64,000 nucleotides of DNA from Pseudomonadota bacterium (GTDB taxonomy: Bacteria; Bdellovibrionota; Bacteriovoracia; Bacteriovoracales; Bacteriovoracaceae). Positions 12,942 through 42,942 of this stretch are shown here, in pieces. Made by a program: the position numbers and the translations under genes. Location of the stretch: assembly GCA_027487685.1 (NCBI GenBank), contig JAIYDC010000050.1, positions 1-64,000 of the forward strand. The letters are read 5' to 3'. The notes below the pieces were generated by a model, which saw nothing but the letters and a program-made list of their open reading frames with translations, was not told the origin of the DNA and did not search any database. Every line of letters starts with the position of its first letter. The stretch's first letter is position 1.

Positions 12942-13055
12942 ATCTAGATAGTGTCTATTATGTGTACGGCCTGTCCAGAAAATTGTCAGTTTTGGGAGGC
13001 CAAGATCTCTGGTGTCTCTGAATGGCCGGCACCGACTTTGCTGATACCCATAACT

Positions 13056-15971
13056 ATGGAACAGCAACAAAAAAGCCTCGTAATGAAAGACTCTCCCACA
13101 GTGGTGCCTGAGCTGGACTCGTTCCGGCTCTTCGCCAGACCCCTAACGGCCAGGCTCCTCGAGGCCATGGAGCTCGGGAAACATTTCTTCCATGGTGAGG
13201 GTGATTACCTCTACTATCAGCAAGACAACAGGATCCACCGTGCACTCGATGTAACTGGCGGCTACGGTGCCAATATACTTGGACACCGCCATCCATCGAT
13301 CCTTCAGAAGGTCCAGGAGTGGCGAGAGGCCGGAGCTCCCTCACTCACCCAGGGAAGCTCTCGCCGTGAGGCAGGCAGACTCGCAGAACGCCTCTCAAAA
13401 ACACTTCAGGAGGAAACAGGGGAAGGCCCTTGGGTTACGACGTTTTCAAATACCGGAACAGAAGCGGTAGAAGCCGCTTATAAGCATTGTCTTCTGTACT
13501 TCCGCCAGAAAGCACTTGAGCTCCAGCAGGAGATCGAAAAAGAATTAAACCTTGTCGTCACCAGAATCATGCGCTTAAAGACAGACCAGCAGATCGCTGT
13601 CATGAAAGGCCTGCGGGCAGAATTGATCCATCGTACAGATTCGCTCCGGATGTCTCCAGAGCGGCGTTCATACCTCCTTCATCAGCTCGCCAACTGCCAC
13701 GACCTCGATACTCTCGTCGGTTTGGTACGAATTGTTAACGAAGGCCAGCTCGCCGAACATCCCCATTTCATCGCTCTGGAGCGTGCCTACCATGGGAAGA
13801 CGATGGGCGCCCTCAGCCTCACTTATAATGAAAGCTTCCGCAATCCGTTTTTCCTGGATGCCAAGTCAAATACTCGAACAAGTTTCGTTTCTCAGTTCAT
13901 CGAGGCCAAGGAACTCGAGGCAATCATAGAAGGACTACGCAGGGACCTCCTGTTTATAGGTCTTGGACCAAATGGAGCAACCTGGGTACGGCACTCGTTT
14001 TCAATCCTGGCAGGAGCATTTGTTGAGCCTATTCAGGGCGAGGCAGGCGTTGTCCCGGTAAACACAAACTTTCTGGCCCAGCTTAAAAAGTTTTCCCTCC
14101 AGGAGAACTTTCTCCTTGTGTACGACGAAATTCAGGCAGGCATGTACCGGACCGGTCGCCTCGCTTCCGGGAGTCACTCCGATGTAACTGCCGACGTGTA
14201 TACTTTTTCTAAGTCTCTTGGAGCAGGAGTGGCGAAAATCGCGGCAACGACAATCAACGAAAAAAAGTATGTAGAAGAATTTGGCTTCCTCCACACGTCC
14301 ACCTTTGCTGATGATGACTTTTCTTCATCGGTGGCACTTGCAGTTCTGGACCTTCTTCAGAGTGAAGTATCTCCGGTGCCACAGGGCCTTCGAAACGCCG
14401 ACTACCTCGCAACACAGCTTGAGTCTCTGCGTGATCGTTATCCGGATTACATCAAGGAGATCAGAGGCAAAGGGCTTATGCTAGCGATTGAATTCCAAGA
14501 CCGCCTCGCCGAGCTGGGTTTTGAATTCAAGATCATGTGTGATGCAAAGATGCAGGGCTACCTACTTGCCTCTTGCCTCCTTAATCACGAAAGTATCCGG
14601 ACCACACCATCCCTCTCAAATAGCCTGACTTTGCGAATTCAGCCTAGTATCTACTTCACAGAAACTCAGACGGACGAACTGCTCCGAGGTCTCGAGAACC
14701 TGTGCCGAGCACTTACGGAGAAGAATCTTCGCTATTTTCTATCTGCGCTATATCCTAATGAGGAAGTTGCTAACATTCCCTCTCCTCCACTCAAGAACGA
14801 CTTTATCCCAGGTCAGCGACGCACAGCTGTTTTCCTTTGTCACCTTATCGATGAGCGCCACGTTCAAAGAGTGACTAATCCCTTGAGGCAAGTCTCAAGC
14901 AAACTCCTGGTCCAAAAGCTTGCTCTGACAAAGGAGTTAGCCGAGTTTGAAGTTTATCATTCTCAGACACTCATCGATAACTCTGGTCAGGAAATGGATG
15001 TTCTCTTGATGGCGGTTCCCATTACCTCAGAGGAACTTAAGAAAACTTTCACCTCTCGCCAAAAATCAAAGGTCATTCAAAAAGTTCAGAATGCCATCGA
15101 TTACGCCAAAGAGCTTGGTGCAAGTACCGTTGGGTTAGGTCAATTTACCTCCATCGTTTCAGGAAACGGTCTCTACTTGAATCCCAGAGGCCTGAACCTT
15201 ACTACGGGCAACGCTTTTACAATCGCTCTCACAGTTCAGTCTGCTCTCAGATCGGCAGAAGCTAAAAAGATTGATCTTCCTCGCGCTAGCGTGGCACTCA
15301 TTGGGGCAGCGGGTAACATCATGTCAGTTGCCACAACTCTCATGGCCGATCACGTCGGTAAACTTATTCTTGTCCACCACACACCGATCGAGGCGAGCAG
15401 TAAGTTCCAAGGGACGATGCGAAAGATGCTGACAGAAATGGCCTCCTCGGAAGCAACATCGGAGGTCTGCCGGGTTATTCGTGAGCATTGGAAAAATCAA
15501 GACCTCTTGAGTTTTCTCGAGCTAGAAGAAGTCAAGCGCGTCTTAGTCGCCACTGCAGACGTCACTCAAGTCAGGGAAGCAGAAATCGTCCTTTGCGGCG
15601 CCAGCGCTTCAAATGGATTCCTTACCCTCGACCTCTTTAAAGAAAATGCCGTGGTCGTGGACATCGCCGTCCCTCCATCCATAACGCCTGAGATGCATAA
15701 AGAGCTAAAGGTCAAACGGCCAGATCTTACTTATCACATGGGTGGAGTGGCACAGATCCCTAAGGGACAGAGCCTCGACTTCTTCATCTTCCCCCTGGGA
15801 GAGAATGAATGCTACGCCTGTATGGCGGAGACTTTCTCCCTCGGCTTCAGCGGACGCGAGAATTTCCTTAATATCGGTGACCTGAATAAGGCCATCGTCT
15901 TAGAGGTTCAGGAAATAGCCCGTCAAGTGGGGTTTGTCCTAGGAAGCGATAAGAAAAAAAGCTCGTTATAG
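13056..15971 (+). CDS. Class III aminotransferase fused to acyl-ACP reductase
   Basis: About 971 residues, two enzymes in one chain. Residues about 30-580 form a fold-type I, class III PLP aminotransferase: DEIQAGMYRTG (about 357) and the PLP lysine in TFSKSLGAG (about 386). Residues about 585-971 match long-chain acyl-ACP reductase (AAR, known from cyanobacterial alkane synthesis): LGQFTSIVS, the LTTGNAFT motif (about 715), a nucleotide-binding GAAGNIMSVA loop (about 748) and YACMAET with the position of the catalytic Cys (about 921). Known AAR reduces acyl-ACP with NADPH to an aldehyde; I infer that the aldehyde is then aminated to a primary amine. The start is uncertain: 12951 (GTG) and 13083 are alternatives, and none has a clear Shine-Dalgarno. 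The 3' end overlaps the convergent GNAT gene by 6 bases. Confidence 0.85.
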   Translation: MEQQQKSLVMKDSPTVVPELDSFRLFARPLTARLLEAMELGKHFFHGEGDYLYYQQDNRIHRALDVTGGYGANILGHRHPSILQKVQEWREAGAPSLTQGSSRREAGRLAERLSKTLQEETGEGPWVTTFSNTGTEAVEAAYKHCLLYFRQKALELQQEIEKELNLVVTRIMRLKTDQQIAVMKGLRAELIHRTDSLRMSPERRSYLLHQLANCHDLDTLVGLVRIVNEGQLAEHPHFIALERAYHGKTMGALSLTYNESFRNPFFLDAKSNTRTSFVSQFIEAKELEAIIEGLRRDLLFIGLGPNGATWVRHSFSILAGAFVEPIQGEAGVVPVNTNFLAQLKKFSLQENFLLVYDEIQAGMYRTGRLASGSHSDVTADVYTFSKSLGAGVAKIAATTINEKKYVEEFGFLHTSTFADDDFSSSVALAVLDLLQSEVSPVPQGLRNADYLATQLESLRDRYPDYIKEIRGKGLMLAIEFQDRLAELGFEFKIMCDAKMQGYLLASCLLNHESIRTTPSLSNSLTLRIQPSIYFTETQTDELLRGLENLCRALTEKNLRYFLSALYPNEEVANIPSPPLKNDFIPGQRRTAVFLCHLIDERHVQRVTNPLRQVSSKLLVQKLALTKELAEFEVYHSQTLIDNSGQEMDVLLMAVPITSEELKKTFTSRQKSKVIQKVQNAIDYAKELGASTVGLGQFTSIVSGNGLYLNPRGLNLTTGNAFTIALTVQSALRSAEAKKIDLPRASVALIGAAGNIMSVATTLMADHVGKLILVHHTPIEASSKFQGTMRKMLTEMASSEATSEVCRVIREHWKNQDLLSFLELEEVKRVLVATADVTQVREAEIVLCGASASNGFLTLDLFKENAVVVDIAVPPSITPEMHKELKVKRPDLTYHMGGVAQIPKGQSLDFFIFPLGENECYACMAETFSLGFSGRENFLNIGDLNKAIVLEVQEIARQVGFVLGSDKKKSSL

Positions 15972-17096
15972 CTCACGGCCATAGAGGACATACTCAGAAT
16001 AAGAATCCTGAGAACGCTCTTCGAATGAGCGCCGCGAAGGGGAATTCTTGATCTGAAAGGTTACGAGAACCGTCCGCATGACTGCAGCAATGAGTTGAAT
16101 CCTCTTCGAGACTTGGATCTGTACGCCCTTAATCTCTTCACCCTGAGGCCCAGGGATCTTACCTACGTGAGCGATAAGAAGTGTTGAAAGATTCATCCGG
16201 AGCTGAAGGAGAAGGAGGACCTTCCTCATCTTCGATAACTTAAGCCCTTTGACCTTAGACAGCACAGGTAAGGGATCCGCAAAATTGATGCTAAAACCCA
16301 CGGGCCTTCCGCGCAATTCGACGATGTACGAGTAATAGGGGTTAATGATGTACTTAAAGTCATCATAAATTGTTTTGAATTGCGGAAAACTAATCGGCTC
16401 CCATTCAGGCATACTCTTATAAGCCTCGTTAAAAAGACGGTGGATAATTTGGAGTTCTCCGTCCCAATCAGCAGGCCTCACACAACGGATCGTTGTCCGC
16501 ATTTGCTTATCTCTGGCCTTGGGATGACTTCCGTCACTCTTCTTTGCAAGCTTTTTGCGCTTAACGAGATAATCCCATATACCTTTGAGTCGCTGAATCT
16601 TGTAAGTGTCCCAGCGTCCAATCTCCGAAAATCCCGTAGCGGAGAAGAGCTCATGATAGTAGTCAGGGTAGATAGGTTCGCCCCAAAATGGCTTACCCCC
16701 TCCAGGGCATTTAATTCGGTACTTGATATAAAAATTGAGGTCAACGGGAGTTTTAAGTGACTTGAGCCCCAGGGCCCTGGCCTTCAGAACCACGGCTTCG
16801 ACGAGAGCGTGGGCCGCAGCTGGATTATTATCCCAGTCGAGAAATCCTAGATTTCCGAGAGTGCCATCTCGACGCCAGGCGAGGATCGCCTTCGCGCAGA
16901 CTGATTCGCCGCTGCGAACGATGAAACCGATCCAGGAATAGTCTACTGCAAAGGGATTACGAGGACCGAAATACCGCTCGTAGTCTGAAATAGTCTCTGG
17001 CAAACTCGACGGGACCTCCGAGTGGATTCGGTTCCGGTAGTCAACGAAGACTTCAAAAAAGGCCGTGTCCCAGGCCTCTACAGTGTCAACTCTCAA
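15966..17096 (-). CDS. GNAT-type N-acyltransferase-like protein
   Basis: A 376-residue protein that looks like two GNAT-like halves: residues about 1-170 and about 205-330, the second with the FNEAYKSMPEWEPIS block and a RGRPVGFSINFADP strand pair typical of GNAT acceptor-side elements. The C-terminal third is basic. The start is a TTG at 17096, supported by a GGAGG five bases upstream and by a TTGA overlap with the P450 stop. It is the last gene of the carS-like - ubiA - PPS-like - P450 operon, so its substrate is probably a pathway intermediate, possibly the amine formed by the adjacent fusion enzyme. That link is inference. Confidence 0.65.
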   Translation of the reverse strand: MRVDTVEAWDTAFFEVFVDYRNRIHSEVPSSLPETISDYERYFGPRNPFAVDYSWIGFIVRSGESVCAKAILAWRRDGTLGNLGFLDWDNNPAAAHALVEAVVLKARALGLKSLKTPVDLNFYIKYRIKCPGGGKPFWGEPIYPDYYHELFSATGFSEIGRWDTYKIQRLKGIWDYLVKRKKLAKKSDGSHPKARDKQMRTTIRCVRPADWDGELQIIHRLFNEAYKSMPEWEPISFPQFKTIYDDFKYIINPYYSYIVELRGRPVGFSINFADPLPVLSKVKGLKLSKMRKVLLLLQLRMNLSTLLIAHVGKIPGPQGEEIKGVQIQVSKRIQLIAAVMRTVLVTFQIKNSPSRRSFEERSQDSYSEYVLYGREL

Positions 17097-18394
17097 GTCC
17101 GCCTCCGGAATCTCATCATAATATTATTTACGGGTCTTAGGCTTATACCTGCCTCGTTCAGCTGGGGCCCCGGATCTAGAATTTCCCAGGTAAAATGCTG
17201 AACCAGACAGGCGAGGATGATCCTGGCCTCAATGCCAGCGAAGTAAGCCCCGATACACGCGCGCGGACCGAGACCAAAGGGGTAATATGCACCTGCGGGA
17301 ATTTTCTTTTTCTCCTCTGGCAGGAAGCGCGATGGTCGGAACTCATTTGGAGCGTCCCAGAGATCAGCCGCTCGGTGAGAGAGGATGGGTGCCAGGACGA
17401 CGTTGGCACCAGGCGGAATAACCTGGTCACCGAGCTTGTCCGAAATTTCCGCCTGTCGCATGAAAACCCAGACTGGAGGCCAGAGTCGCATCACTTCATC
17501 GAGAACCGCTCCATGCCAGGGAACGGTGTTTAGTTTCTCGAAGTCGCGATCACTAAAGAAGGTCCGGGCCTCCCTTTCAAGCTCAACTCGACATTCAGAA
17601 TGCTTGGCAATCTCGATCAAGGTGTACGTAAGTGAGTTCGTAATAGTCTCGTGACCCGCCATCATAAAAGTCATGATCTCGTCCCGAATCTCTCGATCAC
17701 TCATCTGCGTCGTCCCCTCGCCTTGAGCATCAATCAGGAGCTGAAGGAGATCTTGCTTACGTGTCCCATGACGCCGCTCATGAATAAGACCAAAAACATG
17801 GCGATCAAACTTCGCGATAATCTCTCTCAGCCGTAGATGATTACCTGTAGGTACCCAAAAAGGGATCGGAAGAGACGAGCGGGTTTTCGCTGTTATGATA
17901 CGCATGAGTTCTAGAATCTCATGAAGCCATTCATCGAGTGCCGGAGTCGGCTCCTGAGAGAAAAGAGTCCGGAGAATAATCCTCCAAGTAAGACGGTTCA
18001 TCTGGTGAAATCCGTCCACATCGCCATCCACATCCAGAGAGGGGAGAAAAGTTTCGACGGTCTCAAGCATTTTCGGTGCAAGGTCGAAGACACTCCGTAA
18101 GTTCATTACTGGGCGGATCATCCGGTGCTGCTTGCGCCAGGATTCTCCTTCATTGGTGATGAGTCCATTTCCGAGAAAGCGCCTTAAGGCCTTGGTAGTA
18201 CGACCTTTGGTATAAGAGCTATTATTTGTCTTAAGGACATACACAACGTCGTCCGGGTGGCTCACGAAAAAGATCTTCTTTCCAAATATTTCTAAGCGAG
18301 CGCGATGGCCCTGGAGTCGATGCAGGTTTTGAATGAACCCGAGGGGGTCGCTACGGTAGTCTTTCAAAGTCCGATATGATTTCAGAAAACTCAT
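17093..18394 (-). CDS. Cytochrome P450
   Basis: A 433-residue soluble P450, a haem monooxygenase that hydroxylates or otherwise oxidises a substrate with O2 and electrons from a redox partner. The I-helix motif MMAGHETITNS (about 245-255), the ExxR motif in DEVMRLWPP (about 298) and the haem loop FGLGPRACIG with the thiolate Cys (about 377) are all present. The N-terminal FLKSYRTLKDYRSDPLGF and the general pattern resemble CYP102/CYP4-like fatty acid or terpenoid hydroxylases. No ferredoxin or reductase gene is nearby. It overlaps the PPS-like gene by ATGA, so translation is coupled. Confidence 0.95.
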   Translation of the reverse strand: MSFLKSYRTLKDYRSDPLGFIQNLHRLQGHRARLEIFGKKIFFVSHPDDVVYVLKTNNSSYTKGRTTKALRRFLGNGLITNEGESWRKQHRMIRPVMNLRSVFDLAPKMLETVETFLPSLDVDGDVDGFHQMNRLTWRIILRTLFSQEPTPALDEWLHEILELMRIITAKTRSSLPIPFWVPTGNHLRLREIIAKFDRHVFGLIHERRHGTRKQDLLQLLIDAQGEGTTQMSDREIRDEIMTFMMAGHETITNSLTYTLIEIAKHSECRVELEREARTFFSDRDFEKLNTVPWHGAVLDEVMRLWPPVWVFMRQAEISDKLGDQVIPPGANVVLAPILSHRAADLWDAPNEFRPSRFLPEEKKKIPAGAYYPFGLGPRACIGAYFAGIEARIILACLVQHFTWEILDPGPQLNEAGISLRPVNNIMMRFRRRT

Positions 18395-20787
18395 AGTACC
18401 TCGATCGTTCCTTTAAGAGCGTCCATACGCAGCCGGTCGCCCGTCTTAATTTTCTGAGTGGCCCCACGCACACCTACAACTGTAGGAATGTTGAGCTCCC
18501 GTCCAATGATCGCCGTGTGACTCAACAGAGAGCCTTTCTCAGAAATAAGCCCACGGCTCCGAGACATGATGTAAACCCATGCCGGGTCTGTATTCTTTGT
18601 AACCAGGATAAAATCACTGAAGTCAGACACCAAAACGTCCCGTGGGTTGTCGAGCACCAGTGCAACACCTTCTGCGATACCAGGAGAAACCCCCTGTCCT
18701 GCGAGTGCTCCCAGGGTTCGATTCGCACTAGGCTCCGGAAGAGGCTCCTGTGCAACCCAAGCAATGACCTCCGGATAGTGACGTTTCTTATCCTTCCAAC
18801 CTCGCCGATCTTGCAGCCGTTCGCGGACCTTTTGCTCCGAGATTTTACCATCAGCATAATCAAGCCACTCCTCGGAAGAGAGGGAGAAAAAATCGAGGAG
18901 GTCGAACTCTTTCCATGCTGGATCGCTGTCCATCAACCGGCCGGCCAGAGCTAGTACCATTTGTCGAATAAGGTGATAGAACTTTCCTCGCCACAACCGA
19001 GTTGCTTCGCGCATAGAAACCGCATCTCGAGTATATCTGAGGATACGATTACCGACAAAACCCAGATTAGGCTTTTGGGGTGGAGTTGCGGATGCCAGAG
19101 TCAAGGCAGTATTTTTTTTACACCACAGCATGAGATCGGCCAAGAGCCGGGGATTGTTCCTTAGAGGAAGACTTTCAAGTTTGAGTTCTTCAAATGAGCG
19201 GTCACCGTAGCAGCGTAGAAAATCGTCTAGGAGCTTGACCTCGCGCTCTCTGCCCTGAGTACACAAATTTCGAAAGATTTCATCATAAGGTGATAGGCCA
19301 ATCGAAAGTTCCTGGGCCGCAAACTCTCGAAGGAATTCTTCGTCGAGCGCCTCAATAAGCTGGTTAAAGTGCTCAAGAGGCTTTACCGAGTCGACACCAT
19401 CATCAGTCTTAAGTAAGTCGATCACAGTATCCTCATGCAGGTTCTTCGCCTTCAATTTGCGAGTGAGATAACCTAGACCCATCATAATAAAGATGTCATT
19501 GACCACCGTGAGACCAAATCCCAGGGGGCGGTTAGTCACCTCCACTAAAAAGCGGATCAGCTCCGCAGGACTTTGTCGTGTTGTAATCTCTTGCTCAATC
19601 TCACCCCTGAATCGATCAAGATCCGCCAGAAGTTGATTGAAGATCTGGCGGTGCCCCTTGAGGATACGGACAAGAGCGATGCCTGTCTGGAGGGTTTCAA
19701 GTCGCGTGAGCTCTGTGGCATGGTAAGGGATGAAATGGTCGGCCACCTTTCCACCAATCATTTTATGCCAATTATCGATGTTACGTTCTCCTCCCGGTAG
19801 TGCACGAAGAACGGCGTAGTAATGCTCGAGATTGTAATAAAGGTGGTTATCCACTTCACTGATGAGTTGCGAATAGTGATGATTGAGAGCTTCGAGTCGC
19901 GGGCCCTGGGCCCCCATGAGAATCGCAGACTCCTTAAAAACATTTTGGTATGCCTTCTTCACAAAAGCAGCGGTAAATGGACTCACTGTACCCGGGTATG
20001 ATTCAGAAAGATTCGTATCGACGAAGTAGACGAGTGGTTCAAAGGAACGAGTGATAGGCCTAATCTGGAACACAAAAAGTGTGCCATCTTTTATGCCCCA
20101 TTCGATGTCACTGGGAGGGCCAGCCTTTGCTTCAAGTGCCAAACCAAACTTTAAAAGCATATCGAGTTCGAGGGAAGAGAGGACAGGATTCTCAGCGGCG
20201 AGCGTCGAAGCTACGAGTTCACCGGTCCGTGCTAATCGGTAGGTATCCACATCGGCGTGTCCGGAAACGACTCCCTCCCCCATTCCGAGGGCAGCATCAA
20301 TGACGACAGTCGAAGTCGGGGTTACCGGAGAGCGAGTAAAAAGAACGCCGCTTTTGTCTACCTGGACCAATGCCTGTACCACCACCGCCATCTCAAGGTT
20401 AATCGAGATTTTTTTCTGTAAGACATACTCACGGACGCGGTCACTTTCAAGTGATGCATAGATCTGACCTAGGGCCCGTTGCCAGTCATCTTCACGGACT
20501 CCGAGAATTGTGTCGAAGAGACCTGCGAAACTCGCGTCGGCGGCGTCCTCGGCGATCATAGAACTCCGGAGTGCTACAAGTGGATGGTCTTGAAAAAAAA
20601 GTCGAAAACGATCGAAGAGATCCGGAGGAAAGCTGCCATGCTTTTGAAACCATCGATAAGCATTCGTGGTCACCACGAAGAAAGGCGGTACTGGAGCGGC
20701 CCAAGAAACGAGTTTTTGAAGCTGATGACCTTTTCCCCCGACGGACGTCGCCGGAGCAGTAGGACCCATTTCCGCAATCAGAGTCAT
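18391..20787 (-). CDS. PEP-synthase-like ATP-grasp/phospho-His enzyme 1
   Basis: This 798-residue protein has the PEP synthase N-terminal ATP-grasp domain (GGKGHQLQKL near residue 18; ALRSSMIAEDAADASFAGL near 75; VDKSGVLFTRSP near 145) and, at its very C-terminus, the swivelling phosphohistidine domain (GSLLSHTAIIGREL, His about 757). The PEP-binding C-terminal barrel of true PEP synthase is missing. This order is that of rifampicin phosphotransferase and of PigC/RedH/TamQ condensing enzymes, which activate a substrate with ATP. The middle 400 residues would hold substrate specificity. It sits in an operon with UbiA-like and P450 genes through ATGA overlaps. I infer phosphorylation or ATP-driven condensation of a pathway intermediate. 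Confidence 0.85.
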   Translation of the reverse strand: MTLIAEMGPTAPATSVGGKGHQLQKLVSWAAPVPPFFVVTTNAYRWFQKHGSFPPDLFDRFRLFFQDHPLVALRSSMIAEDAADASFAGLFDTILGVREDDWQRALGQIYASLESDRVREYVLQKKISINLEMAVVVQALVQVDKSGVLFTRSPVTPTSTVVIDAALGMGEGVVSGHADVDTYRLARTGELVASTLAAENPVLSSLELDMLLKFGLALEAKAGPPSDIEWGIKDGTLFVFQIRPITRSFEPLVYFVDTNLSESYPGTVSPFTAAFVKKAYQNVFKESAILMGAQGPRLEALNHHYSQLISEVDNHLYYNLEHYYAVLRALPGGERNIDNWHKMIGGKVADHFIPYHATELTRLETLQTGIALVRILKGHRQIFNQLLADLDRFRGEIEQEITTRQSPAELIRFLVEVTNRPLGFGLTVVNDIFIMMGLGYLTRKLKAKNLHEDTVIDLLKTDDGVDSVKPLEHFNQLIEALDEEFLREFAAQELSIGLSPYDEIFRNLCTQGREREVKLLDDFLRCYGDRSFEELKLESLPLRNNPRLLADLMLWCKKNTALTLASATPPQKPNLGFVGNRILRYTRDAVSMREATRLWRGKFYHLIRQMVLALAGRLMDSDPAWKEFDLLDFFSLSSEEWLDYADGKISEQKVRERLQDRRGWKDKKRHYPEVIAWVAQEPLPEPSANRTLGALAGQGVSPGIAEGVALVLDNPRDVLVSDFSDFILVTKNTDPAWVYIMSRSRGLISEKGSLLSHTAIIGRELNIPTVVGVRGATQKIKTGDRLRMDALKGTIEVL

Positions 20788-26084: not shown

Positions 26085-27302
26085 ATGAAGACAATCGCCT
26101 CGATCTTGTTGTTTAGCATGGCCCCGCTCATGGCAATCGCCATGAACGCCGATCTGTCTGGAAACCTAGAAGGTCAATTCCGGAACGCTACAAACAATGA
26201 CGAGGCAAAAAAATCGCCTCTGTTCCAGGACTGGGACAACGAGAACTTCTTCCTTGCCTATGGTAACGTTAACGCCAAAATCGAATTAGGTGATTCTCGC
26301 CTTGAGGCGAATTGGTTTGGGCGCCACGGACTATCCCCCCTGTACGAGCCAAAACCCTTAAGCCCTCTTGGGGCCGATCGAGATCCCTACCTCGCGACAA
26401 ATGTTTTCAGTTTTCCGCAGCGGCTCGTGGCACGGGATATGTTCAAGCTTCAACACGTGTACCAGCAAGGCGATCGAAAAACGGAGTCCGTCCTCAACAA
26501 GTTCTACTACGAGTGGGACTACGACAAAAACCGTTTCATGGTTGGCCGGATGTACATCAACTATGGTCTGGGCGAAATCTTTAATCCGATGAACCCCTTT
26601 AATCAACCCACAGGCCTCACGGCGATTTCTCAGGTTGCCCAAGGCAACGATGGATTCTCCCTCACCTACTTTGTCAGCGACTCCCACACTATCCAATTCC
26701 TGCTCCTGGGCGACAAACGTATCGAAGGTTACGACGGCGAGATCAATCGAACTCTCTGGCTCCATGGCGAGTACCAATACTCCGGTAATCTCCAGCTCGA
26801 TTATGTCATCGGCGAAGACCAGAACCGGCAGAAAATCGGAGGTCAGGTTAGCTACCAGTTAGAGGATGCACTCATTTTTACGCAGCTTCTCTACCAGTCG
26901 CCAAATATAAAGGACGAGCCGTCCCACAACCTCTTGGATCTGCTCTTTGGATACGATCAGCAGCTTACAGGAATCTGGCACGTACGGTTCGAGGGTGGGT
27001 ACCAGAAATCTGATCGCTTTGCGACGGCGACTACCTTCGACCGATTTCTGCCCACGGAGTACTTCGGTGCCCTTGCAAACGTCATAGAGGTCCATCCCTT
27101 ACTGAAAGTTAGTGGAACACTCATTCACGACGTCAAATCGGGTTTCAGCTACACCATCGCCAAGGCGACCTATAGCGCTACAAAAAGTACCGAGGTCGAA
27201 GCCTTCGCCTTTAGCCCAATCTCCCGGGGAGATGAGCCTGACAACCTAGCCCAGAAGCTTGTCACTCAAGACTTAGGCGTGGCCCTGCGCGCTTTCTTCT
27301 AA
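26085..27302 (+). CDS. Outer-membrane beta-barrel of the export operon
   Basis: A 405-residue protein with signal peptide (cleavage near IAMNA) and a long series of amphipathic strands ending in a terminal Phe (VALRAFF). It resembles the DUF1302-type barrels that sit with LolA-like proteins and lipid exporters, but I assign this by context and pattern, not by a diagnostic motif. It is the fifth gene of the export operon. The 3' end overlaps the convergent second PPS-like gene by 30 bases. It probably receives the cargo or acts as an outer-membrane exit or insertion site. Confidence 0.7.
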   Translation: MKTIASILLFSMAPLMAIAMNADLSGNLEGQFRNATNNDEAKKSPLFQDWDNENFFLAYGNVNAKIELGDSRLEANWFGRHGLSPLYEPKPLSPLGADRDPYLATNVFSFPQRLVARDMFKLQHVYQQGDRKTESVLNKFYYEWDYDKNRFMVGRMYINYGLGEIFNPMNPFNQPTGLTAISQVAQGNDGFSLTYFVSDSHTIQFLLLGDKRIEGYDGEINRTLWLHGEYQYSGNLQLDYVIGEDQNRQKIGGQVSYQLEDALIFTQLLYQSPNIKDEPSHNLLDLLFGYDQQLTGIWHVRFEGGYQKSDRFATATTFDRFLPTEYFGALANVIEVHPLLKVSGTLIHDVKSGFSYTIAKATYSATKSTEVEAFAFSPISRGDEPDNLAQKLVTQDLGVALRAFF

Positions 27303-29588
27303 GACCTCCACTAAACCCGTTTTTCCATTCATTCGGATGAGGTCACCATCTTTAATGAGCTTGGTAGCACCAATCAGATTTAGGATTGCAGGTATCCGAT
27401 ACTCTCGTCCAATCACAGCGGCGTGAGACAAAAGGCCTCCAACCTCGGTGATCACTCCCCCGACACGGGCGAGAACCGGTGTCCATCCGGGATCAGTGAA
27501 GACGGTCACAAGAATCTCATCTTTCCTGAGGCCTCCAGTCTGATGGATGTCGAATATGACCCGCGCACGCCCCGTAATTTCACCGGGACTACAGCCTACA
27601 CCCTTGAGATCTCCAGATCCCGAAGCTTTTGCAGCTTGAATACTCCCACCGAATTCATTGGGCGGAGTGAACAGGCGATACCCCTCATAATACTGACGCC
27701 TACGGGTCGTATCCGGGAGTGAGGAGCCGGATAAGGCCCTCAGGACTTCCTTGATGTCGAGCATGAAGACATCAAGCTCAGACATGTCCCGACGCTGAGC
27801 GAACTCAAGGAGTCCGAGGCGTAGGAGGTAATAAGCGCGCGTCGAATAAGAGCGCATCTCTTCACGCAGACGCAGGTACTCACGAGAGGCTTCCGTGCGT
27901 CGTTGGAAGGTCAGCCGTCCTAGAAAGCCGAGTTTATTTCGGATGCGCTCAAAGGTTGCACGGTAGCGGTCTTCTCCGCCCACGCTCGAGGGGAGGTAGC
28001 TTCTAACGAGGTCGTCAACCCAATCCTTACGTTCGCCCCAGCGTGGCACCCGAAGATCTAGCTCTGCAGGCCCATGATGGTAATGATCTTTAAGGAAGAT
28101 TTCTCGTTCTCGGTGATACCCCTCAGACCCGAGGCTGGATAACTCCGCCACAGACCATAACTTCGCAAGCCCGCCCTGTACGTCCAGATGCGCGACACCC
28201 CGGAGCTCACTCATAAGGTCGACCTCGTCGCCAAGTTCGTACCCAGGAAGTTTTTTCAGATAGCTTTTGTACTCCGTTTGGTAGTTTGAATTATTGTAAA
28301 TAGTCCGGAAATAGCTTTTCTCTGTCTCGTTCTGATAACGAATAACATCGGCAAACCAAGTGGCAAATTCTGACATCGGCATGAGATGAAGTTCTGGAAG
28401 CTTCGACTTCAGATAACCATCTCTTATCTCGAAAGCGTCCCGAAACAGGCGGATCATATTCCGGCAATCAAGGAATTCCTTATTGATCCCAATCAGTACA
28501 GGAATAGCTCCGACAATGGTCGCGAGAGAAACCGGGGTATGTGCCGGACCCGCCTCGCCGTAATCCTTCTGAACTCCGATATCGCGGTCAAAATCGGCTT
28601 CTTTGAAATCCGGTAGTTTTTTAAGACCGTCCTTCACCGCCCCGGCGTTCCAGTAAACGCGGCCGTAGTGATAAACTATCCAGTCAACCTCCTCATCGTT
28701 TGTAATCAACTGAACTTTTTTTAAATAATCTCCCATCGAATACCTAAGCGCATCTCGGTAGACGGAGAACATGAACTGGGTACAAACACGGGCGGAAACA
28801 CCTCCGTCTTTGAAATCAGCGTTGGTGAGTTCAGGAGAATCCGTACGAGGGGTGAAAGTGGTGACTGGCCTGGATTGGAGAATATAGACTTTGCCGTCTG
28901 CACCTATCGCCCACTCAATATCCTGAGGTGATCCATAATGGGCCTGGATACGTGCCGCCAAATCGACGAGCTCCTTTAGGTGCTCGAGAGCAATGGTTGT
29001 CCCTTCGGTGTTGATCGATTCAAGGAGCTTTCGATCCGATAGCCAGTCGTAGACAATCGATGTGGGTGTTACATGGCCCGAGACGAGGCGCTCCCCAAGT
29101 CCGGCACAACATTCGATGTACATCTCCTCCTCATGTCCGTTTAAGGGATTAATGGTGAAGAGAACACCCGCAATAAGTGCTGGAACCATTTTCTGCACTA
29201 AAACACTCATCCGCAGAGAATCTGGCGTCCAATCGATGCCTCGAGTCTGAAGGTAGTCACGCACACGCAGAGAATCCCGGGACGCAAAGCACTCAATGAT
29301 CCGCGCCTCTAGATCAGCGCCAGAGGTAACATCGAGGAAGGTCTCGTACTGGCCTGCAAAACTAGCATCTCCGAGATCCTCGAGACTTCCGCTCGAGCGC
29401 ACTGCCACAGGGAACCCCCCAATGATCTCGATTGCTGCCAAAGCTAAGGGAACGGGTTTTTCAAGCACAATGCCAGGAGGAACGGGAAAACCGGCAAGAA
29501 GGAGTTCGTGGAGCTTCCCTGCTTTACCGCCGAACGTTGAAATCGTCTCCACGTCCAGCGTGGGGTCTCCAAGATAAAAGTATGTCAT
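27273..29588 (-). CDS. PEP-synthase-like ATP-grasp/phospho-His enzyme 2
   Basis: A 771-residue relative of the 18391-20787 enzyme with the same domain order. The ATP-grasp part has TFGGKAGKLHELL (about 18-30), AVRSSGSLEDLGDASFAGQ and GVLFTINPLNG; the C-terminal swivelling domain has GGLLSHAAVIGRE (His about 721). The PEP-binding domain of PEP synthase is absent. The central region differs strongly from enzyme 1, so the two probably act on different substrates of one pathway or at two steps. It is convergent with the export operon and divergent from the radical-SAM operon. Confidence 0.85.
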   Translation of the reverse strand: MTYFYLGDPTLDVETISTFGGKAGKLHELLLAGFPVPPGIVLEKPVPLALAAIEIIGGFPVAVRSSGSLEDLGDASFAGQYETFLDVTSGADLEARIIECFASRDSLRVRDYLQTRGIDWTPDSLRMSVLVQKMVPALIAGVLFTINPLNGHEEEMYIECCAGLGERLVSGHVTPTSIVYDWLSDRKLLESINTEGTTIALEHLKELVDLAARIQAHYGSPQDIEWAIGADGKVYILQSRPVTTFTPRTDSPELTNADFKDGGVSARVCTQFMFSVYRDALRYSMGDYLKKVQLITNDEEVDWIVYHYGRVYWNAGAVKDGLKKLPDFKEADFDRDIGVQKDYGEAGPAHTPVSLATIVGAIPVLIGINKEFLDCRNMIRLFRDAFEIRDGYLKSKLPELHLMPMSEFATWFADVIRYQNETEKSYFRTIYNNSNYQTEYKSYLKKLPGYELGDEVDLMSELRGVAHLDVQGGLAKLWSVAELSSLGSEGYHREREIFLKDHYHHGPAELDLRVPRWGERKDWVDDLVRSYLPSSVGGEDRYRATFERIRNKLGFLGRLTFQRRTEASREYLRLREEMRSYSTRAYYLLRLGLLEFAQRRDMSELDVFMLDIKEVLRALSGSSLPDTTRRRQYYEGYRLFTPPNEFGGSIQAAKASGSGDLKGVGCSPGEITGRARVIFDIHQTGGLRKDEILVTVFTDPGWTPVLARVGGVITEVGGLLSHAAVIGREYRIPAILNLIGATKLIKDGDLIRMNGKTGLVEVLEESAQGHA

Positions 29589-29784: not shown

Positions 29785-31209
29785 ATGCAAAGCCTTAACC
29801 TCCTGGAGCGGGTCGACCTCGAAGCCGTTCAGGGCCTGGTCTATCTTAAGCCAACCGAGCTTTGCTATGTGCGAGTCGCTTCCCTCACGAAACTGACCAG
29901 CATCGATTCGGTGGTGATTTCCGAGGCGGTGAGATACACCTCGAAGACCTTCGTGTCCTTTCCGATCGAAGAGATCAACAACCCTGAGAAAATCCTTTCG
30001 CTCTTAAAACTTGGGGTCAATGGCCTGGCACTTCGCGCGAGCTACGAGGATAAGAAGTTTCTCCACCACGAGCGCCGGGGCTCAGAGAGGTCTGGTGACC
30101 TGGATCTCATCGCAAAGGTCGAGCGGTTCCGCCGCGATTTTCCAAGCTTCGAGACCGTGGTCGAGTTTCAGCTCTTACCAGACATGCGCATCCTCGCCCC
30201 AACGATTGTACGCCTTTACGAAGATGGGATGCGGTGGGTGGTACTGAACGCAGAAGGCGAGCCCGACAAGCTCCGGATCTCCGGATTCCGGGAGATCTTT
30301 GAGTACCTCCGTATCAGAGGATGCAGCTACTTAAACGTCTACTTCCCTTTTTGGAACCGTCAGTTTCGCGAGTGGGACATAAAAACTCAGAACACATTCT
30401 CGGGCCTCTTTGAAGTTCACATCGACATCTCTAACCGATGCACTCATAGCTGTACCTTCTGCGGCCTTTATGGGCCCGCGGCCCTTGAGGATATCAAGAA
30501 AGACAATGGAGGCAAGCTCAGCTCGCAGGTCAACGAATTCATGAAAATGGAAATTGACTCTGAGCACTGTTACCAGATCATCGAAAGTCTGCCCTGGAGC
30601 GTAAACATCGTCCAGTTCGGCGGAGCGGGAGATCCCCTCATGCACAGAGATGCTGTGAAGTTTATCACGGCCGTCCGTAGTCGCGGATTCAAAGTAAGCG
30701 TACTCTCGAACATGGAGTACCTCGAAGAAGAGGACCTGCTCGAGCTTCACCGGCTTGGTGGACGCCAGGATGACCTTCACTTCATCGCTAACGTCTCCGC
30801 CGGAACTCCCGAGATGTACGTTAAAACCCGTCCTCGGCAAACTGATAAGACGTTTGACAAGGTCTCTTCAGTCCTGGACAGATTGAGCACACTGCGAGAG
30901 AGCAGCGCCGATGGGAGAGGAGTCTTCTTTACTGTGATGTGCGTAGTTACCACAATCAACTGCCAGTCTCTTTTGGACGTCGCCAAGCTTGCGGTTAAGC
31001 TCAGGGCGCAGAAGCTGTGGTTCAAACCAATGGAGCTTCATGCAAGTTTCCAGGCCCCTCTTATCCCAGGTGGCAATGAAATGATGCGCGATATGGCCCG
31101 TTCCCTCAAGGAAGCAGCTGACTATGCCCTGTCCCACGGTCTTGAACTTGAACAGCAGGAGTACTGCGAGCAGATCTTCGAGCGTTATTTGGGAGAGATT
31201 CATGTCTGA
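29785..31209 (+). CDS. Radical SAM protein with a separate SPASM partner, copy 1
   Basis: The start at 29785 follows an AAGGGGG Shine-Dalgarno and matches the start of paralog 40923-42350. The 474-residue protein has an N-terminal alpha/beta domain of about 200 residues that I do not recognise, then the radical SAM core with CTHSCTFC (Cys about 218, 222, 225) that binds the 4Fe-4S cluster and S-adenosylmethionine. FGGAGDP is the GGE-like SAM-binding strand. The usual C-terminal SPASM domain is missing; it is encoded by the next gene, which overlaps by 8 bases (ATGTCTGA). Such enzymes modify peptides or other substrates by radical chemistry. No precursor peptide is evident. Confidence 0.85.
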   Translation: MQSLNLLERVDLEAVQGLVYLKPTELCYVRVASLTKLTSIDSVVISEAVRYTSKTFVSFPIEEINNPEKILSLLKLGVNGLALRASYEDKKFLHHERRGSERSGDLDLIAKVERFRRDFPSFETVVEFQLLPDMRILAPTIVRLYEDGMRWVVLNAEGEPDKLRISGFREIFEYLRIRGCSYLNVYFPFWNRQFREWDIKTQNTFSGLFEVHIDISNRCTHSCTFCGLYGPAALEDIKKDNGGKLSSQVNEFMKMEIDSEHCYQIIESLPWSVNIVQFGGAGDPLMHRDAVKFITAVRSRGFKVSVLSNMEYLEEEDLLELHRLGGRQDDLHFIANVSAGTPEMYVKTRPRQTDKTFDKVSSVLDRLSTLRESSADGRGVFFTVMCVVTTINCQSLLDVAKLAVKLRAQKLWFKPMELHASFQAPLIPGGNEMMRDMARSLKEAADYALSHGLELEQQEYCEQIFERYLGEIHV

Positions 31210-31585
31210 CCTCGTTAAAAAACACCCCCAGGAGCTAGTCCTCGATGAAGTTCGGATCGGGGTGGCCAACGGCGACGTTCCAGCAAACCTCTATTCAGAA
31301 ATCCCGTGTACTATTGGCTACTCGTATATTCGCTTTGAAGTGTCCGGAAATATCGTCCCATGTTGCATCGCCAAGCATCGAATCGGTGATATAAAAAAGA
31401 ATGACTGGCGTGAAGTCTGGCACTCCGGCGCCTATGAATCCTTTCGGAGAAAAATGAGCCGAATTCATCTCGAACGTTTCCATTTGGTCGATCCGGAGTG
31501 GACCTTCTGCCAGCAGTGCAGCCACGTACCGCTTAACCAGGCCAATGCCGACCTGCTACGCAAAGGCAGAGAGGAAGAGAAATGA
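31202..31585 (+). CDS. Stand-alone SPASM-domain protein, copy 1
   Basis: A 127-residue protein consisting almost only of a SPASM domain. The start at 31202 is inside the end of the radical SAM gene. The cysteines expected for auxiliary Fe-S clusters are seen in CTIGYSYIRFEVSG, IVPCCIAKHRIGDI and TFCQQCSH. The WREVWHSGAYESFRRKM block is typical of the SPASM region of radical SAM/SPASM enzymes. It probably completes the upstream radical SAM core in trans. A paralog with the same arrangement is at 40553-40930. Confidence 0.85.
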   Translation: MSDLVKKHPQELVLDEVRIGVANGDVPANLYSEIPCTIGYSYIRFEVSGNIVPCCIAKHRIGDIKKNDWREVWHSGAYESFRRKMSRIHLERFHLVDPEWTFCQQCSHVPLNQANADLLRKGREEEK

Positions 31586-39303: not shown

Positions 39304-40563
39304 TTACTGGCCTGGAAGAGAAATCTTGAGGGACATAATCTGACCCCGGTGGGAAACAAGAAGTAGCTCTCTTTGTCTTCCGGGAATTTTCCGGGCAATG
39401 TAATAAGTTTCACGAAGGGGGGTGGGTAAACACTCACTCACATCTCGGTAGCCCGATCGATCGCGATAGATCAAACGGGTGTGGAATGCAGGATGTCGCT
39501 TTTTGGGGTCCCGGAGTACGCTTCTAACTTCGGCCAGGATCACCGTTATGCCTGAACCAAGGGACAACTCCTCCAGCGAATTGACGTACCCCTCTGCCGT
39601 TGGCTCCGGCGAAAGCGGTAGCTCGTAGTCGCTAAAACGGACGAGGCCTGGCCGGGATTCGTTCCGGTAAATAACTATCTTCCAACGGTGAAAGCCCATG
39701 TCATGGACAGCGGTCAAAATATCGGGCTTTCCGTCTCCGTTCTCGTCGAAGGTTTTAGCAAAAACTGTCCCCCATGAGCGGGACTCCCGCCGCGGCGGAA
39801 TCGTCTCAGGTGGAAGTAGAACGAACTTCCCTTTCCGTTGCACCAGAATCCTATCATGGGCCTGCTCAGGTCTGTTCTGCGGCGTATCGCAGCCTCCTAG
39901 AAACAAATCTCTTACTCCGTCCAGATCAAAATCTTCGGCCACTGCAGTCATTAAACAGAGCTTTTGGGGTCCTAGATCCGGAGGCAAGAGGCCAGATCGA
40001 TCGATCCAAAATCCTTTTTCGAAAGCGAAAAAAAACGGATTCTTTCCGTTAACATTTGCCTTATAAAGCCCATGTTTTCCGCCGAAATTCAAAGCTGCGA
40101 CGTTAAAAGTGAAATCTTTCCCTAATGTTTTTGAGCGCTCGTCATACACCCATCGGTCATTCATTTTTCGGAGGATCACAGGTGCTGCTCCCGGGTAAGG
40201 AGGTTTATCTGTACCATGATCAGCGATGATAACTTCCCGTTTTTTATCTCCGTCTATGTCCTCCCAGAGCATGTGGCGGGCATGGTAAGTCCGAGGTAGT
40301 TTTTCAGAAGCTTTGGAGTCATAACTCCACTTCCCTTTGTTCAAAGAATAGATTGATATGGGTGCATCCAGGGCTTTTGAAATTGGAAAGTTAGTCACCA
40401 TTATTTCTTGAGGACCTGTGAAGATGAAGTCAGTCGGACCAAAAACGGGAGGACCATGAATCGGACTCTCCGGAGTGAGCGTTAACTTTAAGGGACAGGT
40501 TGCTCCAGAGACTAGAGGCAGGAAAGCTATGAAGAGGAGAAAGTACCAAGAGCTAATCGTCAT
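39304..40563 (-). CDS. Secreted FG-GAP/VCBS-like propeller protein
   Basis: A 419-residue protein with signal peptide (LLFIAFLPLVSGATC). Repeated segments such as EDIDGDKKREVIIADHG, EDFDLDGVRDLFLGG and FDENGDGKPDILTAVHD follow the FG-GAP/VCBS pattern with Ca-binding DxDxDG loops of integrin-like seven-bladed propellers. It is likely periplasmic or extracellular. Its start overlaps the end of the SPASM gene (40553-40930) by 11 bases, so it is translationally coupled to the second radical-SAM island, which makes it a possible target or partner of that system. Confidence 0.75.
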   Translation of the reverse strand: MTISSWYFLLFIAFLPLVSGATCPLKLTLTPESPIHGPPVFGPTDFIFTGPQEIMVTNFPISKALDAPISIYSLNKGKWSYDSKASEKLPRTYHARHMLWEDIDGDKKREVIIADHGTDKPPYPGAAPVILRKMNDRWVYDERSKTLGKDFTFNVAALNFGGKHGLYKANVNGKNPFFFAFEKGFWIDRSGLLPPDLGPQKLCLMTAVAEDFDLDGVRDLFLGGCDTPQNRPEQAHDRILVQRKGKFVLLPPETIPPRRESRSWGTVFAKTFDENGDGKPDILTAVHDMGFHRWKIVIYRNESRPGLVRFSDYELPLSPEPTAEGYVNSLEELSLGSGITVILAEVRSVLRDPKKRHPAFHTRLIYRDRSGYRDVSECLPTPLRETYYIARKIPGRQRELLLVSHRGQIMSLKISLPGQ

Positions 40564-40930
40564 TTTTCTTCAAGAGTTCGTTCATCTGTTTATTCTGATC
40601 AAGGTGGCTACACTGCTGACAAAAAGTCCATTCCGGATCTGTCAGGTGGAAGCGATCAACATGAATTCGCACCATCTTCTTCCGAAAATTTTCATAGGCC
40701 CCAGAAAACCAGACATCACGCCAGTCCTGATTGTAGATGTTTCCTACTCGGTGCTTGGCGATGCAACAGGGAGCAATATCGCCACTCACTTCAAAACGTA
40801 GATAGTTATACCCTATGAGGCACGGAGACCCAGAATAAAAGCTGGCAGGAATATTCCCATTTACGACCTCAAGCTTGATCTCGGCTGCTTCCATGGGAAC
40901 AGAGGTTGTATTCTTCGTAAGCTCAGACAT
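40553..40930 (-). CDS. Stand-alone SPASM-domain protein, copy 2
   Basis: A 125-residue paralog of 31202-31585. The start at 40930 lies within the end of the radical SAM gene, using the same ATGTCTGA overlap as copy 1. Cysteines appear as CLIGYNYLRFEVSG, IAPCCIAKHRVGNI and TFCQQCSH, the expected auxiliary-cluster ligands. The N-terminal tail differs from copy 1. It is followed by the FG-GAP-like gene. Confidence 0.85.
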   Translation of the reverse strand: MSELTKNTTSVPMEAAEIKLEVVNGNIPASFYSGSPCLIGYNYLRFEVSGDIAPCCIAKHRVGNIYNQDWRDVWFSGAYENFRKKMVRIHVDRFHLTDPEWTFCQQCSHLDQNKQMNELLKKNDD

Positions 40931-42350
40931 TAACCGAATCTCCTGAATATTTCCTGATGATTTCATCACAGACATCACGTTGGACAACTTTTACTCCACA
41001 TTCGTCTGCATAAGCGATCGCTTCGGCATAGGCACGCGCCATCGCCGACATCAATTCATCCCCTGGGACATAGGGACGGTGCATATCACCGTGAATTTCC
41101 ATCGGCTTGAACCATACCTGCAAAGCACCGATCTCCTTCGCAAGCTTAACAATGTCAAGGAGGCCAAGACAATTGAGCCGATTCACTACGCACATGATCG
41201 TAATGAGTACCCCGATACCTCCGGCCTGCTCACGAAGATCACGAAAGAGACTAAGATTGCGCACAACCTTCTCAAATGTTTTCTCATTTTGCCGAGGTCG
41301 AGTCTTAACGTAGAGCTCTGGCGTTCCGGCCGAGACATTCGCGATGAAATGAAACTCATAACTGTTGATGCTACCTAATCGATGAAGGAGGCCGATGTCA
41401 TCATCGCTTAAATACTCCATGTTCGAAAGAACTTCGACTGCAAAGCCACGCCGGCGAGCTGCCGCAATAATCTCCACAGCACTTTCGTGCATTAAAGGGT
41501 CACCCATGCCGCCGAATTGAATCATTCGTACGGACCACGGGAGGCTCTGGATAATTCCAAGGCACTTTTCAGGATTCATCTCCATTTTCATGAGATTCTT
41601 CAAGCCTTCCGGGAGTGTTCCTCCATGGCGCTTTTTAACATCATCAATGGCTTCCGCACCATACAGCCCACAAAAAACACAGCTATGTGAGCAGCGGTTC
41701 GAAATATCGATATGAACTATTTCGAGGCATGAAAAGGTGTTTTGAGTCTTAAGGTCCCATTCAGCAGTATCTTTTCTCCAAAATGGAAAGTAGACATTCA
41801 GGCGATTGGGTCCACGAATCTTCAAGTACTCAATGACTTCGCGAAACTGGCGAAACCGCTCATTGGACGGTTCACTCAGAGGATTTAAAACAATCCAACT
41901 TGCTCCAGCTTGATGGACGCCCATGATGCTGGGACCGAGCACTCTGGTATCTTCTCCAACTTGGAACTCAACTGTCAGGAATCGATCTAAGGGAAACGTT
42001 GATCGAAGATAGCTGTATCTATCTATAAGCTCGCGGTCACCAGAGTAAATATCTCCGAGACCCTGATTGAGTAGCCATCGTTCGGGTCGATGTGTCATAC
42101 GTAGGGCGAAACCATAGACCCCAACATTGAGGATCTTCTGAACGAGGAGGACATCATCGATCTCCTCTAAGGGAATGGAGAGCACGACTCTAGAGCTAAG
42201 ACTTGCTGCCCTTGCGACGAAAGATAGTAAATCATCACTCATTAATCTAAGAGAAGATAATCGAAGGTAGAGGAGTTCATCTGGTTTCAACAGGTCGATG
42301 GCCCTGTGATCAACGAAATCCCCTTGGCCAGCAAGGTCAAGACTTTTCAT
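40923..42350 (-). CDS. Radical SAM protein with a separate SPASM partner, copy 2
   Basis: A 475-residue paralog of 29785-31209 along its full length, including the unrecognised N-terminal domain (MKSLDLAGQGDF, VVLSIPLEEIDDV). The core motif is CSHSCVFC (Cys about 218, 222, 225) with FGGMGDP as SAM-binding strand. It lacks a SPASM domain, which is supplied by the overlapping gene 40553-40930. Gene order on the minus strand is twitch, twitch, ChlI-like, radical SAM, SPASM, FG-GAP. Confidence 0.85.
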   Translation of the reverse strand: MKSLDLAGQGDFVDHRAIDLLKPDELLYLRLSSLRLMSDDLLSFVARAASLSSRVVLSIPLEEIDDVLLVQKILNVGVYGFALRMTHRPERWLLNQGLGDIYSGDRELIDRYSYLRSTFPLDRFLTVEFQVGEDTRVLGPSIMGVHQAGASWIVLNPLSEPSNERFRQFREVIEYLKIRGPNRLNVYFPFWRKDTAEWDLKTQNTFSCLEIVHIDISNRCSHSCVFCGLYGAEAIDDVKKRHGGTLPEGLKNLMKMEMNPEKCLGIIQSLPWSVRMIQFGGMGDPLMHESAVEIIAAARRRGFAVEVLSNMEYLSDDDIGLLHRLGSINSYEFHFIANVSAGTPELYVKTRPRQNEKTFEKVVRNLSLFRDLREQAGGIGVLITIMCVVNRLNCLGLLDIVKLAKEIGALQVWFKPMEIHGDMHRPYVPGDELMSAMARAYAEAIAYADECGVKVVQRDVCDEIIRKYSGDSVNV

Positions 42351-42405: not shown

Positions 42406-42942
42406 TCAGAAACGTGTCGTATCCTTAACGAGTTCCTTAGCCTTAAACTCAAGTCGCGCGCTGACTCCGAAGAGATCTCTTCCATCGATGATCCTTCCGT
42501 GACCGTCGGATGTATCTGATGAGGTAATAAGATGGAGACCATTATCTTCGCAGAGCTGGTTGATCGCAGGACTAAATGGTTCCTCGACTACACCCCCAGG
42601 GTTTAGAGCTCCAAGAGCGAGGCAATTGTCGAGTGTTGAGATAGGAAGGAGGCCCGCAAGAAACCAGTAATGCAGTAAAAGCGGGTATTCAAGCCAGCGC
42701 ACGCTAGACCCTTCGATGTAACCGAGTTCGTCCCCAAGTTCGACATTGAGGACAAAGCGCTTAAGTGGGACTGGCAGGCCTCGCGCCCGGGTAATAAAGA
42801 TCACCTTCTCCTTGATTCCACGTCCATATTTTCCTAGACCGTTGATCTCTAACCCAGGAACGCTTTTGCTTGCGTAGCCAAAAAGAGAAACCAAGACTGG
42901 TCCTTTCTTCGTGATGTAGCAGCTCTGAAGTTGTGTTTCCAT
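42406..42942 (-). CDS. Stand-alone ComM/ChlI N-terminal-type domain protein
   Basis: A 178-residue protein. VPGLEINGLGKYGRGIKEKV followed by ARGLPVPLKRFVLNVEL aligns with the N-terminal domain of ComM/YifB (LPGL..VGL...KE.RDRV...SG...P.K.I..NL), a Lon-S16-like fold, and ALGALNPGGVV matches its GELALTG strand. The AAA+ ATPase part is absent, so it cannot be ComM itself. It sits between twitch radical SAM genes and the radical SAM/SPASM pair. I rate the domain call as probable and the function as unknown. Confidence 0.55.
   Translation of the reverse strand: METQLQSCYITKKGPVLVSLFGYASKSVPGLEINGLGKYGRGIKEKVIFITRARGLPVPLKRFVLNVELGDELGYIEGSSVRWLEYPLLLHYWFLAGLLPISTLDNCLALGALNPGGVVEEPFSPAINQLCEDNGLHLITSSDTSDGHGRIIDGRDLFGVSARLEFKAKELVKDTTRF

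Follow-up and report, generated by a model that had tools for sequence, protein, structure and literature searches.

The 64,000-nucleotide stretch analysed here (the window) carries on its forward strand, at positions 29785–31585, a pair of overlapping genes that we call copy A. The upstream gene (P0001, 29785–31209, from an ATG at 29785 to a stop codon ending at 31209) encodes a radical SAM core protein of 474 amino acids, in which an N-terminal domain of about 200–205 residues precedes a radical SAM partial barrel and no SPASM or Twitch domain follows. Its sequence displays the CX3CX2C motif for the SAM-binding 4Fe-4S cluster at residues 219–226 (30439–30462, + strand). The downstream gene (P0002, 31202–31585, + strand, from an ATG at 31202 to a stop codon ending at 31585) encodes a stand-alone protein of 127 amino acids that consists almost wholly of an auxiliary Fe-S domain of the Twitch type, with cysteines at positions 36, 54, 55, 103 and 106. 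The genes share the 8-base sequence ATGTCTGA (31202–31209, + strand), and the 14-base pattern around this overlap occurs only once in the window. A Shine-Dalgarno-like GGGAGAG (31191–31197, + strand) ahead of the Twitch gene lies inside the 3′ end of the core gene. The Twitch gene in turn overlaps by 4 bases the next gene (P0003, 31582–32949, + strand), which encodes an N-terminal-Twitch radical SAM protein (NF033640, 307.7 bits, cut-off 170).

The earlier note on this DNA had described a core with CxxxCxxC that ends before any SPASM region and an overlapping gene that is little more than the auxiliary domain. Both parts of this description are borne out. The sole Pfam match of the core is Radical_SAM at residues 215–367 (E 2.5e-9), and that of Pfam SPASM (PF13186) to the small protein covers residues 36–106 of 127 (E 2.4e-10). 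Membership in the radical SAM superfamily is indicated by PF04055 scores of 38.0 and 38.9 bits against a gathering cut-off of 29.5, along with CX3CX2C.

The single pair of the earlier note was an incomplete picture, as a second pair (copy B) lies 9 kb away on the reverse strand. Its core protein (P0011, 475 amino acids, 40923–42350) is 48% identical to that of copy A, the Twitch-type proteins of the two copies (P0012 in copy B, 125 amino acids, 40553–40930) are 58–61% identical, and the copy B genes overlap by the identical 8 bases (40923–40930). A whole-genome search finds exactly these two copies of the pair in the genome. Upstream of copy B on the same strand are two N-terminal-Twitch radical SAM genes, P0015 and P0016 (43040–44272 and 44269–45549), with NF033640 scores of 346.5 and 346.9 bits that both pass the cut-off of 170. 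Directly upstream of copy B is also a reverse-strand gene for 178 amino acids (42406–42942) that is conserved in four genomes of the genus. It has zero matches in Pfam and NCBIfam, and its product may resemble the N-terminal domain of ComM.

Divergent from copy A lies a gene for a 771-amino-acid PEP-synthase-like protein (27273–29588, − strand) with PPDK_N and a mobile domain, whose best NCBIfam match is RedH (285.3 bits, cut-off 1350). In genome G011 a relative of this gene directly adjoins an N-terminal-Twitch gene, and the split pair is missing from between the two. A possible biosynthetic cluster at 12951–20787 encodes a cytochrome P450, a 1006-amino-acid protein for which the PigE aminotransferase is the top NCBIfam match (277.6 bits, short of the cut-off, 850) and another PEP-synthase-like protein, which matches RedH and PigC below their cut-offs.

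The core protein ends where a Twitch domain would begin

An AlphaFold model of the core, built from eight sequences (pLDDT 82.1), fits radical SAM enzymes. The best structural match is to SkfB, with 209 residues aligned at an rmsd of 2.3 (Z 18.8) and core residues 207–460 placed on SkfB residues 105–322. The Twitch cysteines of SkfB are 333, 385 and 387, according to PMC6231123. Because these cysteines (333–387) lie beyond the structural fit, the core ends where the Twitch domain would begin.

The N-terminal domain was already described as unrecognised in the earlier note, and searches of Pfam and NCBIfam likewise returned no family covering residues 1–205. This domain is retained, with weak conservation, in 22 of 23 aligned sequences, the exception being the N-terminally cut sequence from G129. 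The AlphaFold model predicts alternating strands and helices in residues 1–205, and from this alternation the domain may have a barrel-like fold. The matches in the structure-match list (VIA-align) mainly span core residues 201–474 and hardly cover the N-terminal domain. The idea that this domain duplicates the radical SAM barrel finds no support from hhalign (probability 0.1–0.2%, E 0.3–0.4).

The small protein is of the Twitch type

The SPASM motif, as set out in PMC6231123, is CX9-15GX4C-gap-CX2CX5CX3C-gap-C, comprising seven cysteines and two clusters, and the same source describes Twitch as a truncated SPASM domain with the first four cysteines of the motif and one cluster. All 21 domains of the family, whether fused or split, carry CX12GX4CC and CX2C, with Cys 36, 54, 55, 103 and 106 invariant, and thus hold the first four cysteines of the SPASM motif. 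An invariant histidine lies two residues after the last cysteine. A further cysteine after CX2C is absent from 20 of the 21 domains as judged by script, and from the remaining one (G351) as judged by eye. A full, two-cluster SPASM domain is therefore ruled out by the cysteine count, both in the window copies and in the family, and the 'SPASM domain' of the earlier note has instead the cysteine set of a one-cluster Twitch. The small chain would thus carry one auxiliary Fe-S cluster.

The small proteins of the window pass the SPASM model PF13186 (41.0 and 39.3 bits, cut-off 21.5) and fail TIGR04085 (21.9 and 19.5 bits, cut-off 27). In a search with a profile of seven domains, a single solved relative, BtrN (4m7s, E 1.8e-5), falls below E 0.001; its alignment takes in the first two Twitch cysteines and breaks off before the last two. 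An AlphaFold model of the small protein alone (pLDDT 38.7) was set aside.

Split, fused and separate forms across the family

Within the genus, 5 of 26 genomes contain close core relatives, in seven copies, each with a Twitch gene directly 3′ of the core gene; two further genomes yield weak core matches only. Across the phylum, 24 strong core copies occur in 20 of 368 genomes, after exclusion of 8 of 32 matches (E 1.7e-16 to 4.8e-11) as other radical SAM proteins. The corresponding Twitch search gives 21 strong copies in 18 genomes after exclusion of 3 of 24 matches (E 7.4e-10 to 8.3e-9). The co-occurrence that the earlier note had proposed to check is tight: all 18 genomes with a Twitch domain are among the 20 that bear a core, and in the two core-bearing genomes lacking a Twitch match the core gene runs off the contig end.

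The junction can be read in 22 copies, those of G140 and G110 being cut by a contig end and omitted. Core and Twitch genes are separate, adjacent and on the same strand in 15 copies, which bears out the split into two genes that the window suggests with its two reading frames and paralogous pair. The search for fused homologues was also productive, as five copies form one chain (G351, G069, G062, G131 and the N-terminally cut G129). In the remaining two, the Twitch gene lies beyond another gene and on the opposite strand (G072) or no partner is nearby (one G071 copy). The earlier note had regarded homologues with the genes apart as evidence against its reading; such homologues do exist, but they make up 2 of 22. 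The partnerless G071 copy (contig 16, L095:7475-8860), which enters only the core tree described below, has an intact CX3CX2C motif and no Twitch gene nearby, and two other pairs are present in that genome. This copy may borrow a Twitch protein. Because of this copy and the opposite-strand partner in G072, coupled translation is inessential.

The 15 split copies differ in geometry. The distance between the genes is −8 four times, −17 twice and +30 in the genus-level copies, and −32 (with a GTG start), +13, +1, +12, +2, −4, −4 and −8 in the others, although single values may shift where several start codons are possible. The genes thus overlap by 4, 8, 17 or 32 bases or are separated by gaps of 1, 2, 12, 13 or 30 bases, and all three relative frames are represented. 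The 8-base overlap is common to the two copies of the window and both copies of G006. In G348 (L099:6944-10466), an extra one-chain radical SAM protein lies directly before the split pair; its open frame of 563 amino acids includes a C-terminal cysteine domain of its own.

In a tree built from 22 core sequences, three changes account for the fused state, and the well-supported branches allow no fewer; the tree has long branches (G247, G348 and G351) and a short G129 row, and the direction of change is unreadable from it. The family has therefore switched between fused and split forms more than once. As a control, 16 of 16 other SPASM- or Twitch-like domains, brought in by weaker matches (nine viral loci and seven weak matches of the genus search), sit in one open frame with CX3CX2C. 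Thus, separation is a trait of the split-pair family rather than an artefact of the search.

A scan of genome contigs with two peptide patterns found six loci, in records titled as Bacteriovoracaceae, Bacteriovorax stolpii or Proteobacteria MAGs; as the scan rested on these two patterns, the family may extend beyond the phylum. No core relative was found among plasmid records at E 1e-5 or among viral contigs in the two-pattern scan.

The surroundings of the pair vary. N-terminal-Twitch radical SAM genes number one to four per genome in most of these genomes, and 19 in G247, 7 in G131 and 5 in G129; in these last three genomes none lies within 5 kb of the pair. The 19 matches of G247 are found in a 4.1-Mb genome, ten of them on contig C275. 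The pair or fusion of G062, G065, G066 and G069, four genomes from another genus, has a glycosyltransferase gene and an M16 peptidase gene close by, joined in all of these except G066 by an ABC-2 exporter pair; these gene kinds come from a domain scan in G065 and from similarity clusters in the other three. Such neighbours hint at an exported or surface product. A search of 105 small open reading frames in the gaps of 12 sequences found zero conserved precursor candidates beside the pair. Genes matching P0004, P0003 and P0005 also occur together in G011, without the pair among them.

A proposed two-chain enzyme

We propose, with a probability of roughly 0.75, that core and Twitch protein together make up one heteromeric radical SAM enzyme, with the Twitch domain docked in trans. 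The 474-residue chain would hold the SAM-cleaving cluster and the active-site barrel, and the 127-residue chain, with one auxiliary Fe-S cluster, would dock at the barrel end as the Twitch domain does in SkfB and BtrN. The 5′-deoxyadenosyl radical would abstract a substrate hydrogen atom, after which the Twitch cluster would take up an electron from the substrate radical, giving a two-electron oxidation or bond formation. This role of the auxiliary cluster as electron acceptor is drawn by analogy with BtrN, PqqE and SuiB, following PMC9012708.

The existence of fused, one-chain relatives argues that the two chains form one enzyme, and fusion together with genetic linkage points to a physical complex of core and Twitch. 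The distance matrix of the core correlates with that of the Twitch protein, at r = 0.94 for 16 separate-chain pairs and r = 0.85 for all 21, although the nearest neighbours of core and Twitch agree in just 14 of 21 copies, which counts against a single enzyme. The partnerless G071 copy and the opposite-strand Twitch gene of G072 count against it as well. The neighbouring N-terminal-Twitch radical SAM enzyme is a probable working partner of the pair in many copies.

It is scarcely credible that the two genes are one chain broken by a frameshift, whether through sequencing or assembly error or through decay. The genomes appear to be draft assemblies and the overlapping gene does lie in another frame, but a single frameshift, as raised in the earlier note, is excluded in practice by 15 split copies with differing overlaps and gaps in all three frames, and the 8-base overlap recurs in both window copies and two of G006. 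Moreover, both genes are under strong purifying selection, with dN/dS of 0.03–0.06 where dS is unsaturated: 0.063 for the core and 0.032 for Twitch between copy A and G006 (dS near 2, thus rough), 0.063 for the copy B core (equally rough; dS of its Twitch is saturated), and 0.060 and 0.042, respectively, between G011 and G008. The varied geometry and the selection on both genes therefore argue against a frameshift artefact. Programmed frameshifting or stop read-through that joins the two frames into a fused protein is also very improbable. Fused homologues exist and GTC TGA stands at the stop in four copies, yet these shared letters also belong to the start codon overlap, whereas other copies have TAA or TAG stops, overlaps of 17 or 4 bases, or gaps of up to 30 bases followed by a new start, and no common slip site.

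An unlikely alternative of another kind is that the small Twitch protein is no fixed subunit but an independent, ferredoxin-like electron carrier that serves the core and perhaps the N-terminal-Twitch enzymes. It would suit the finding that 14 of 22 copies have an N-terminal-Twitch radical SAM gene no more than 5 kb away, the three core copies as against two Twitch copies in G071, the uncoupled Twitch gene of G072 and the intermolecular electron transfer proposed for PapB in PMC10470005. However, in the 5 of 22 copies with a fused chain the domain occupies the ordinary Twitch position, and six of the eight copies with no N-terminal-Twitch gene within 5 kb still have an adjoining Twitch gene or a fusion. 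A more specific form of exchange, which we consider distinctly improbable, has the free Twitch protein take up the substrate-radical electron, leave, and return the electron to the SAM cluster of the same or neighbouring enzymes. If this is true, the split would be a natural form of PapB-type intermolecular electron transfer, with the auxiliary cluster as a shared, mobile part.

The role of auxiliary clusters remains elusive with few exceptions, as stated in PMC10470005. In one-chain enzymes the cluster is removable only by altering the protein, whereas a separate Twitch protein could be omitted, titrated, swapped between copies A and B, or reduced alone. A family that offers the domain fused, coupled, apart or missing is thus a natural system for examining its role. 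The split pair occurs in some relatives of predatory bacteria, in which the auxiliary domain, elsewhere usually built into the enzyme chain, is a separate small protein.

Comparison with known systems

A literature search, with subscription papers mostly outside its range, found no report of a SPASM or Twitch domain acting in trans or switching between fused and separate forms. The nearest solved profile relative of the small protein is the Twitch radical SAM dehydrogenase BtrN (PDB 4m7s/4m7t), which likewise has a four-cysteine, one-cluster Twitch domain. Unlike the split pair, BtrN is one chain of 269–270 residues, with no space for a comparable 200-residue N-terminal domain. The Twitch sactisynthase SkfB (PDB 6efn), the best structural match of the core chain, is also a single chain, and its N-terminal part is an RRE according to PMC6231123. 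No precursor peptide was found in the gaps searched beside the split pair.

The N-terminal-Twitch radical SAM proteins (NF033640) are operon neighbours, and the two split proteins weakly match the two halves of this model, at 23.9 (P0001), 36.9 (P0011), 24.6 (P0002) and 25.7 bits (P0012), all below the cut-off of 170. In contrast to the split pair, each of these proteins is a single chain that carries its auxiliary domain at the opposite end. By its NCBIfam names, GeoRSP (TIGR04303 and TIGR04304) likewise pairs a radical SAM/SPASM protein with a 'SPASM domain protein', but there the partner is itself named radical SAM/SPASM and the model of the SPASM protein has 293 positions. P0001 scores 19.9 bits against TIGR04303 (cut-off 400) and P0002 10.9 bits against TIGR04304 (cut-off 300, E 0.17). 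A comparable switch between fused and separate forms is known for the RRE domain, of which PqqD is the stand-alone case (PMC6231123).
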